Origin: an uncultured Clostridiaceae bacterium
Lineage (GTDB): Bacteria > Bacillota > Clostridia > TANB77 > CAG-508
Reading direction: 5' to 3'
Assembly (NCBI GenBank): GCA_930990125.1
Contig: CAKNOI010000008.1
Coordinates: forward strand, 1 to 54,785
Length of the DNA: 54,785 nucleotides
The stretch's first letter is position 1. The number at the start of each line of letters is the position of its first letter. Under the pieces are notes generated by a model. It worked only from the letters and a program-made list of their open reading frames with translations. It was not told the origin of the DNA and made no database searches. A program made the translations under genes and the position numbers. Shown here one piece after another: positions 1-35,965 of this stretch.

Positions 1-124
1 CTTTACTAATTATTCCGTTTTCACCTAGTGTAAAGCTTAGGGTTATTGATGCTAAAATTATTAGAATTACCACCGTAATTACTAAAGCCACTAACGTAAT
101 ACCTTTTTCTTTTCTTCTTTTCAT
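1..124 (-). CDS. Pilin-like surface protein, N-terminal fragment
   Basis: Only the first 41 codons are present; the gene runs off the left edge. The protein starts with a short basic stretch (MKRRKEK) followed by GITLVALVIT and a long hydrophobic helix, which is the layout of a type IV prepilin N-terminal segment: basic leader, Gly, then membrane helix. The same segment starts the protein at 34268-35680. An AGGAGG ribosome-binding site sits 8 nt before the ATG. It is likely a secreted or surface-anchored protein with a divergent C-terminal domain, but that part is outside the window. A long leader (about 125-409) precedes it. Confidence 0.75.
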   Translation of the reverse strand, partial: MKRRKEKGITLVALVITVVILIILASITLSFTLGENGIISK

Positions 125-269
125 GTTTTCATCCTCCTATGTTTTTTAGAAATACTACTTTTTACATTGGCAGTCTATCTTTGTATCGCAAATATACACA
201 GTTTTCCTGTGCTTTTTTATTCTATTTTGTTCTACTTTATCATAACTATTTTTTACAACATTTATGTTA

Positions 270-338
270 TCACCTAAAATAAATGTGTGTGTGTGTTACA
301 GCCTCAAGGCTTTTCGCATTTTTTCTTTGGTGACTCAT
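270..338 (-). CDS. 22-codon leader peptide reading through an AC repeat
   Basis: The ATG at 338 is preceded by a GAGGAG ribosome-binding site 9 nt upstream. The frame encodes MSHQRKNAKSLEAV, then THTH from the dinucleotide repeat, then IYFR and a TGA stop. A change of one repeat unit (2 nt) would change the frame and the stop position. The equivalent small ORF in leader B also starts near its promoter and reads through a dinucleotide repeat. Function unknown; a cis-acting leader peptide is the simplest guess. Confidence 0.45.
   Translation of the reverse strand: MSHQRKNAKSLEAVTHTHIYFR
284..296. repeat. (TG)6 dinucleotide repeat
   Basis: Thirteen perfect nt on the plus strand (CA on the transcribed sense) inside the leader A small ORF. 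Confidence 0.95.
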
Positions 339-415
339 TCTTTTTCTCTCCTCTCTGTATATTTGCACATTTTTTACTTTTATTGTATTGGTAGTATTCC
401 CTCTTTTCGCATTTT

Positions 416-444
416 ATTTTATATGTTTTTCTCCTCATTGTCAA
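416..444 (-). promoter_or_regulatory. Promoter of the pilin-like gene (leader A)
   Basis: TTGACA (minus strand, 439-444) and TAAAAT (416-421) with a 17-nt spacer. It sits just past the stop codon of the surface-protein remnant at 448-591 and starts the long leader of the gene at 1-124. Confidence 0.65.
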
Positions 445-34267: not shown

Positions 34268-35680
34268 TTACGGTGCAAGCGTGTATGGATTTTCAAAAGT
34301 TCCATCACCGGAGGTTACCTTTACACCTTGCTTTAAGCGAAATACTGGACGAAGTGCTCCACTACTAGTATATCCATTTGTAGTACCATATATATAAACA
34401 TAACATAATGCATCAGTTCCTAGACTGCCACTTATATTAACTCGACGCATATCAAAATAGCAATAACTAGAATTACCAATTACCACTCTAGAAGCCAACC
34501 AATAGTATTTCCCTCGATTGTATATTTTTAGTTTATTCATTTGCTCCCAATCCGTTACATAGTTATTGTCTGTATCTTTTAGTGTTCCACTATACCCTCC
34601 TCCAAACTGTGTCGTATACATTCCTGCTCCATCATAGTTTGGATTATCTGGCACGCTTCCTACGCATCGCGCTACTTCTGCTATTCCATCATCCTTCTTT
34701 CTATAATTCTCTGCTTCTGCGTTTAATATTGCTATAGCATTATTATAGGAATTTCTACTTGTATTAAAATCACTGCTTCCTAATGTTACATTTCCTACCG
34801 TATCTGCTGTTATAATTTGTATTCCATAACTACTATAGTTAGTATTTTCTACTCCATATAATACAATACATTTCTGCTGTGTTCCATACGCATCTGTGTA
34901 CCATACATATTTTCCTTCTGTTAATCGACTATCTACAAGGATTTTTCCTGTTGTAGCTTCTATACTTTCTTCTCCTATATTTCCTGCTTTATCTTGCACT
35001 TTTACTGTTAATGTATATTGGGTTTCTTGCTCTAATTCAACATAGATATAGCTATTGCTTATACTTTTTCCATCTAAAGCTTCTCCTAAGTAATATTGGT
35101 ATGTCTCTGTTTCTACTAGTCCACTTTCTTCTTCTGTTACTTCTACCGTTACTACTATACTATTACTTGTTACTTCTCCTACTGTTACTTTTACTTCTGG
35201 CTTTTTTTCATCTTTTATTATTGTACTTTTATTCACACTTGCTATGCTTCCATTCCATAGCCTTGCGTGTACTTCGTCTCCATGATATAGCCCTGTTACT
35301 TTCTCTCCGCTTTTTATCTCTTTCCAATTTTCTTCTGCTGTTCCATTTATTTGGTACTGTAATGTCTCTCCTGCGGTATTGGCAAGTATACTTACCTCTG
35401 CTTGTCCATTACTCCATGTTACTTCTCCAAATTCTATTGTCCCTTTCGGTACTTCTATTTCTCCTTCTCCCGCTTCTATCCCTTTTAGCTCATTTAATAG
35501 GTTTTGTATTAGCTTATCTTCTTCTGCTGCTGCGTTTGCCATGTTTTGCTTTGCTTCTTGTGCCTTCGTAATTATTCCATAGTCTCCTATCATAGTATCT
35601 AGCGTTACTCCTGCTAAGATAATTAGCACAATTACTGTTATCACTAATGCTACTAGTGTAATTCCTCTTTCTTTCCCCAT
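34268..35680 (-). CDS. Pilin-like surface protein with Ig-like and DUF6273-type domains
   Basis: 470 aa. N terminus MGKERGITLVALVITVIVL: basic residues, Gly, then a hydrophobic helix, the type IV prepilin layout. A helical stalk (KAQEAKQNMANAAAEEDKL) follows, then an Ig/fibronectin-like part (SNSIVVTVEVTEEESGLVE, KVQDKAGNIGEESIEATTG), and a C-terminal domain with GKYYWLASRVV, ALRPVFRLKQGVKV and GTFENPYTLAP, as in DUF6273 surface proteins. Probably exported and displayed on the surface. Its leader (35755-35930) and promoter resemble those of the gene at 1-124. No prepilin peptidase gene is in the window. Confidence 0.75.
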   Translation of the reverse strand: MGKERGITLVALVITVIVLIILAGVTLDTMIGDYGIITKAQEAKQNMANAAAEEDKLIQNLLNELKGIEAGEGEIEVPKGTIEFGEVTWSNGQAEVSILANTAGETLQYQINGTAEENWKEIKSGEKVTGLYHGDEVHARLWNGSIASVNKSTIIKDEKKPEVKVTVGEVTSNSIVVTVEVTEEESGLVETETYQYYLGEALDGKSISNSYIYVELEQETQYTLTVKVQDKAGNIGEESIEATTGKILVDSRLTEGKYVWYTDAYGTQQKCIVLYGVENTNYSSYGIQIITADTVGNVTLGSSDFNTSRNSYNNAIAILNAEAENYRKKDDGIAEVARCVGSVPDNPNYDGAGMYTTQFGGGYSGTLKDTDNNYVTDWEQMNKLKIYNRGKYYWLASRVVIGNSSYCYFDMRRVNISGSLGTDALCYVYIYGTTNGYTSSGALRPVFRLKQGVKVTSGDGTFENPYTLAP

Positions 35681-35755
35681 TTTGTCTCTTCCCTTCTAAA
35701 TATTTTATGTACTCAAATTTTTGTAAAATTACTTTAACTGGAATTACACACATAA

Positions 35756-35789
35756 AAAAGACAGACTATTTTACATAGCCTATCTTTAT
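35756..35789 (-). terminator. Possible attenuator hairpin in leader B
   Basis: Thirteen-pair stem (two G-U pairs) with loop GTAAA, followed by six T on the minus strand, 75 nt before the gene start. Readthrough would be required for gene expression. Confidence 0.5.
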
Positions 35790-35843
35790 ATTTCAAATAA
35801 ACACAGCTTTTCTGTGTTTCTAATTTTTTACTTTTCCTAAACC

Positions 35844-35900
35844 CTAGCTCTCTCTCTCTCTCTCTCTTACAGTATCAACGGTTTTGCTCTTTTTTATCAT
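35844..35900 (-). CDS. 18-codon leader peptide reading through a GA repeat
   Basis: ATG at 35900 with a good AAAGGAG ribosome-binding site; encodes MIKKSKTVDTV, then REREREs-like residues from the GA run (R-E-R-E-R-E-S) and a TAG stop. Repeat-length changes would alter frame and stop, as in leader A. Confidence 0.45.
   Translation of the reverse strand: MIKKSKTVDTVRERERES
35848..35867. repeat. (CT)10 dinucleotide repeat
   Basis: Twenty perfect nt on the plus strand (GA on the transcribed sense). At the matching place leader A has a TG/CA repeat (284-296). Confidence 0.95.
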
Positions 35901-35935
35901 TTTTATATTTCTCCTTTTCTTCCGTTCTTTGCTTT

Positions 35936-35965
35936 ATTTTACCTTATTTCTTTTTCTCTTGTCAA
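35936..35965 (-). promoter_or_regulatory. Promoter of the pilin-like gene (leader B)
   Basis: TTGACA (35960-35965), 18-nt spacer, TAAAAT (35936-35941). From here to 36100 no gene is visible. Confidence 0.6.

Follow-up and report, generated by a model that had tools for sequence, protein, structure and literature searches.

The two leaders in the window

The window analyzed here is the whole stretch of 54,785 nucleotides from an uncultured Clostridiaceae bacterium (assembly GCA_930990125.1, contig CAKNOI010000008.1, positions 1 to 54,785). It carries two prepilin-like genes, each preceded by a leader with a dinucleotide repeat inside a short ORF. The features of leader A, at the contig end, were as follows:

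444 to 125, minus strand: leader A, whole
439..444, minus strand: -35 box TTGACA
416..421, minus strand: -10 box TAAAAT, after a 17-nt spacer
346..351, minus strand: Shine-Dalgarno sequence GGAGAG
270..338, minus strand: leader ORF in its present OFF phase, 22 codons, ATG at 338 (MSHQRKNAKSLEAVTHTHIYFR, then stop)
284..296, minus strand: CA dinucleotide tract within the leader ORF
155..283, minus strand: openable frame, extending past the degenerate terminator
197..211, minus strand: CACAG/CTGTG hairpin, within the extended ORF
175-182, minus strand: AAAGATAG motif
148..182, minus strand: degenerate remnant of a terminator hairpin
2..124, minus strand: prepilin-like gene truncated by the contig end (N_methyl, PF07963)

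Those of leader B were:

35965 to 35681, minus strand: leader B, whole
35960..35965, minus strand: -35 box TTGACA
35936..35941, minus strand: -10 box TAAAAT
35908..35914, minus strand: Shine-Dalgarno sequence GGAGAAA
35844..35900, minus strand: leader ORF in its present OFF phase, 18 codons, ATG at 35900 (MIKKSKTVDTVRERERES, then stop)
35848..35867, minus strand: GA dinucleotide tract
35734..35847, minus strand: openable frame, crossing the terminator, with the stop beyond it
35802..35816, minus strand: CACAG/CTGTG hairpin
35780-35787, minus strand: AAAGATAG motif
35754..35787, minus strand: intrinsic terminator, stem AAAGATAGGCTAT/ATAGTCTGTCTTT plus U-tract
34268..35680, minus strand: prepilin-like gene of 470 aa (MGKERGITLVALVITVIVLIILAGVT...)

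All elements listed in the first-pass annotation, from the promoter to the gene, were present on the minus strand in both leaders, and its description of a CA repeat in leader A and a GA repeat in leader B, both inside the ORF, was accurate. The gene behind leader A matched the N_methyl profile (PF07963) at its N-terminus with 22.0 bits against a cut-off of 21.2. The Pfam profile search gave no N_methyl match for the gene behind leader B, in which the prepilin motif GITLVALVITVIVLIILAGVT was recognized by eye. No Rfam match was found anywhere in the window, and the leader is therefore not a catalogued riboswitch.

Both leaders were in the OFF phase in the present assembly. As the annotation had proposed, the repeat length set the leader stop. 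The 22-codon ORF of leader A became 61 aa long with one more CA unit and 59 aa with two fewer, ending beyond the AAAGATAG region in both cases, and the 18-codon ORF of leader B became 54 aa long with one GA unit fewer and 56 aa with two more. The open stretches of 126 nt in leader A (P = 0.018) and 111 nt in leader B (P = 0.039) exceeded those of most shuffled sequences. The ORFs of 22 and 18 codons that had been annotated are thus not the functional unit; they are frame-shifted OFF forms of ORFs of ~55–75 codons, and the functional feature would be the alternation between OFF and ON.

The terminator of leader B comprised a stem of 13 bp (-14.7 kcal/mol) followed by U residues. At leader A, the CACAG/CTGTG hairpin reached -8.3 kcal/mol (computed for 195-213). 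The intrinsic terminator expected of an attenuator of the pil1 type was degenerate there, with an interrupted stem (-5.2 kcal/mol) and no U-tract. The attenuation switch that had been suggested for both leaders is therefore doubtful at leader A, where the recognizable U-tract terminator was lost; leader B and most of its paralogues were intact. Leader A is probably no longer well attenuated.

Leader copies in the source genome

The annotation had counted two leaders, and this number had to be raised to ~12 in the 1.38-Mb genome. The copies were located on contigs C8 (A and B), C9, C12, C13, C18, C19 (twice), C32, C42, C43, and C51, and several were truncated by contig ends. All (CA)6+ and (GA)6+ runs of the genome, among those listed, lay within such leaders or within leaders cut by a contig end.

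The paralogues on C12 and C43 were found in the ON (open) phase, and the open-phase leader peptide of C12 read MRNKRTKKAESLEAVTHTHTHTFIQ...NCAYLRYKDRLRKLVCLFLAYDSS before its stop. In leader B and most paralogues, the long ORF phase crossed the terminator stem and stopped after it. The AAAGATAG sequence of leader B and the paralogues formed the 5′ arm of this intrinsic terminator, which had a stem of up to 13 bp, a stability of -11 to -15 kcal/mol and U residues after the stem. In a set of ten terminator sequences, eight of them from the source genome, 96.9% of the pairs were kept, vs. at most 59% when the partner was slid, and three stem pairs were changed on both sides.

The first-pass annotation had treated AAAGATAG as a motif of its own. 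It was indeed present in both leaders, but it was part of the terminator (degenerate in leader A) rather than a separate element. As a stand-alone motif it was rejected, with seven of the 11 genome matches of AAAGATAGRCT being unrelated, and it matters only as a terminator arm.

Some copies in this genome showed a different structure. Two leaders on C13 and C9 (L047 and L052) started at the contig end in the CA tract and had a second GA tract downstream in the same ORF, so that a single frame may be subject to two hypermutable repeats. In the leader on C42 (L049), the repeat had shrunk to GAGAGA and the frame stopped ahead of the terminator; this leader is apparently locked OFF. A phage-type leader truncated by the contig end was found on C51 (L179, 1-60, minus strand). 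It directly followed the end of another gene, its own promoter was not evident, and it is perhaps a prophage element.

Frames, terminators, and downstream genes

The copies for a wider survey were selected by the repeat motif only, and frames played no part in the selection. Thinned counts are reported because copies within genomes are related and the unthinned counts are thus not independent.

A start codon preceded by a Shine-Dalgarno sequence was found in frame with the GCT-GTA motif in 164 of 198 copies, while the other two frames had such a start in 7 and 10. This agreed with the earlier claim that the repeat lies in a translated frame, as far as can be read from the DNA. Near-consensus promoters were present in 21/63, vs. 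0.6%.

One frame reached the terminator in 98% of the 149 copies with a terminator, compared with 38% in shuffles. After thinning, one of the three frames reached it in 44 of 44 unrelated downstream sequences, compared with 16.1 on average and at most 24 across 500 shuffles. That two frames stop early was rejected as evidence, since shuffles did equally well (96.6 vs. 96.5%), so that the information lies in the third frame alone. Terminators with a stability of -10 kcal/mol or better were detected in 43 of 67 sequence clusters and in 1-2 of the shuffled ones. About a third of the clusters had no strong terminator, and some of these were direct fusions or had another layout.

The present phases of 137 cellular copies were 34 ON and 103 OFF, an ON share slightly below one third (P = 0.04). 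The OFF stops were at a median of about 39 nt upstream of the terminator.

The first downstream ORF had a prepilin-like N-terminus in 99 of 157 cases, which bore out the view that the genes behind the leaders encode surface proteins. Among the other first ORFs, many had a membrane or signal segment at the start, and some resembled phage tail genes. A minority of leaders (for example, L119, L172, L174, L177, and L178) lacked a terminator and were fused in frame to the prepilin, with the repeat placed upstream of the GITLxAL cleavage motif; the variable part would therefore be removed on maturation. In two further cases (L021 and L175), the leader preceded or lay near a protein with the stretch AILGGSTTSEIKNMLEIFLL, which was not a pilin and looked FkbH-like by eye.

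Repeat-number variation

Eighteen pairs of near-identical copies, defined by flanks at least 90% identical on both sides, were compared. The repeat number differed in 13 of the 18 pairs and the phase in nine, with none of the pairs comparing one locus between two strains of the species of the window; assemblies can miscount microsatellites, and individual differences may be assembly errors. The differing pairs included phage contigs with identical flanks (L299/L317 and L303/L309) and copies within one genome (L061/L093). The first-pass annotation had made its proposal depend on the leader recurring at other genes, on a variable repeat length and on translation of the leader ORF; judged by the ~12 leaders, the varying pairs and the in-frame starts, and as far as sequence allows, the proposal was not refuted.

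Occurrence across genomes

Of the 287 genomes examined from the order, 69, representing 28 of 45 genera, contained the CA-type pattern GGCTGTA(N)CACACACACA, and the reversed control pattern had no match. The (CA)6 form was absent from 248 other genomes sampled across the phylum. GA-type leaders were found in 10 of 56 relatives, one of which had 26 copies, and up to about 30 leader copies occurred per genome. In a scan of representative genomes, the matches listed included Clostridia, Clostridium, Eubacteriales, and Erysipelotrichaceae MAGs. The occurrence of the leader is far beyond chance.

Proposed mechanism and alternative explanations

We propose, with a probability of roughly 85%, that the dinucleotide-repeat leader ORFs are phase-variable, ribosome-mediated transcription attenuators of prepilin-like and other surface genes. 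The ORF with its start site, the repeats, the frames, the terminators and the repeat-length differences are directly visible in the DNA. The slippage rate, the interference of the ribosome with the terminator and the outcome for expression are expected by analogy with the experiments on pil1 of Streptococcus gallolyticus.

In this mechanism, the ribosome would initiate on the short leader ORF (MxxxxSLEAV...) and translate through the CA or GA tract, which would gain or lose units via slipped-strand mispairing. In two of the three phases, the ORF would end just after the tract and before the terminator; the terminator should then form and the downstream surface gene should be low (OFF). The ORF of the third phase would enter or pass the terminator, and the ribosome should block formation of the stem, so that transcription should proceed into the surface gene (ON). 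Single cells should in this way switch surface proteins on or off at random. One argument against this mechanism is that translation-dependent attenuation requires transcription-translation coupling, which is weak in some Firmicutes.

Another explanation is that the extended ORF encodes a small protein switched by the repeat, and that the pilin is expressed independently. The tails of paralogues within the source genome were alike (LRYKDxLRKLVCLFxVxDSS, then stop), as would be expected of a conserved product. However, this conserved tail coincided with the terminator stem, and the open frame of leader A read the homologous DNA in another frame. In other genera, the peptide tails were unrelated and the terminator was nonetheless reached, and most late stops lay inside the hairpin (94 of 137 copies, with 40 after it). 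A conserved small protein as the product was rejected, since the open frame is retained rather than the peptide, and this explanation appears very improbable.

A leader peptide with repeated codons ahead of a terminator also resembles the his and thr leaders, and runs of Thr/His or Arg/Glu codons could stall the ribosome when the amino acid is scarce. However, the repeat kind was interchangeable with the frame logic retained: CA (Thr-His) and GA (Arg-Glu) repeats replaced each other even among paralogues of one genome, and regulatory codons for a single amino acid were not conserved. Since the two kinds substitute for each other, the leader is unlikely to sense one particular amino acid. Moreover, the ORF of most copies ended directly behind the repeat, an alternative antiterminator hairpin common to several genera was not seen, and the downstream genes encoded surface proteins, not biosynthesis. 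Taken together, amino-acid-sensing attenuation seems even less probable than a small-protein product.

The least probable explanation is that the leaders serve chiefly as places where pilin genes are exchanged by recombination, with incidental repeats and terminators: it would fit the many copies per genome, the similar leaders before different genes and the contigs that break at leaders, but it does not predict a frame that reaches the terminator or an in-frame start, and recombination at leaders could act in addition to attenuation.

Comparison with known systems

Phase-variable attenuation of this kind has a precedent in S. gallolyticus pil1, where gain or loss of GCAGA repeats lengthens a leader peptide into a terminator and raises transcription, loss of the start codon lowers transcription, and loss of the terminator raises it 11-fold (PMC3894217). 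In its OFF form, the ORF there ends 39-49 nt ahead of the terminator (Danne et al., 2014, PMC3894217). This was the only report of such a device found in the literature.

The clostridial leaders share the design of pil1 and pil3, in which a frame change in a tandem-repeat leader ORF extends the peptide so that it enters or passes an intrinsic terminator ahead of pilus genes. In front of a pilus gene, they had a promoter and a leader ORF with its Shine-Dalgarno sequence and start codon, and the ORF contained a short tandem repeat (CA or GA) whose unit is not a multiple of three. Leader B and its family had a terminator between the ORF start and the gene. One frame stopped well ahead of the terminator and another reached or passed it, and the OFF stop was tens of nucleotides ahead in both systems (39-49 there, median 39 here). 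However, S. gallolyticus has GCAGA pentanucleotides and sortase-assembled pili at two loci, whereas the leaders described here have CA or GA dinucleotides, a different leader peptide, and prepilin-like genes of the N_methyl type as well as other surface genes. They also reach about 30 copies per genome, extend over many genera and have a phage form. The GCAGA repeat expected of descent from the S. gallolyticus leader was not seen among the copies found, which were all of the CA or GA type. We consider that the clostridial leaders probably work like pil1 and are of independent origin, because the repeats, the leader sequence and the pilus type differ. They apparently represent a dinucleotide-repeat, order-wide and multicopy form of the known pil1 mechanism.

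In the contingency loci of Neisseria (opa) and Haemophilus, slippage of repeats within the coding region switches the translation of surface proteins by frame. The leaders resemble these loci in switching a surface protein by repeat slippage, but most copies carry the repeat in a leader ORF distinct from the gene, where it should influence transcription; a minority are direct in-frame prepilin fusions. In the trp, his, and thr leaders and in bmrBCD, a terminator forms or fails to form depending on how a leader peptide is translated. Leader translation would govern terminator formation in the same manner here, but the input would be a heritable mutation of repeat length, not stalling on particular codons.

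If the proposed attenuation is true, a mechanism known from one streptococcal species group would become a large-scale strategy among the uncultured gut Clostridia of a whole order. Each genome would have up to about 30 surface-gene loci that seem to switch independently, and the number of surface states would be very large. The attenuation would also explain why these small genomes contain dinucleotide microsatellites and why assemblies tend to break at them, and repeat lengths in raw gut metagenome reads would give a predicted on/off state for each surface gene.

Leaders on phage contigs

The same leader was found near tail and lysis genes on 21 IMG/VR viral contigs (L297-L317). It had a ribosome-binding site, an ATG, ...SLEAV or a similar sequence, and a CA repeat, and the genes nearby included Gp10_C (PF21939), a PHROG tail protein, and an endolysin. 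For one contig (L303), a comparison with named phages gave no close match.

The leader is shared by these Clostridia and phages found in metagenomes, and we speculate, at slightly less than even odds, that slippage of the repeat and translational coupling let the phages vary their tail or receptor-binding proteins, in parallel with hosts that switch their surface pilins by the same kind of device. Such sharing suggests that host and phage compete by means of one and the same switch. Near-identical phage contigs differed in CA number, and on some contigs, L303 among them, the open frame terminated at TAATG, overlapping the start of the next gene.
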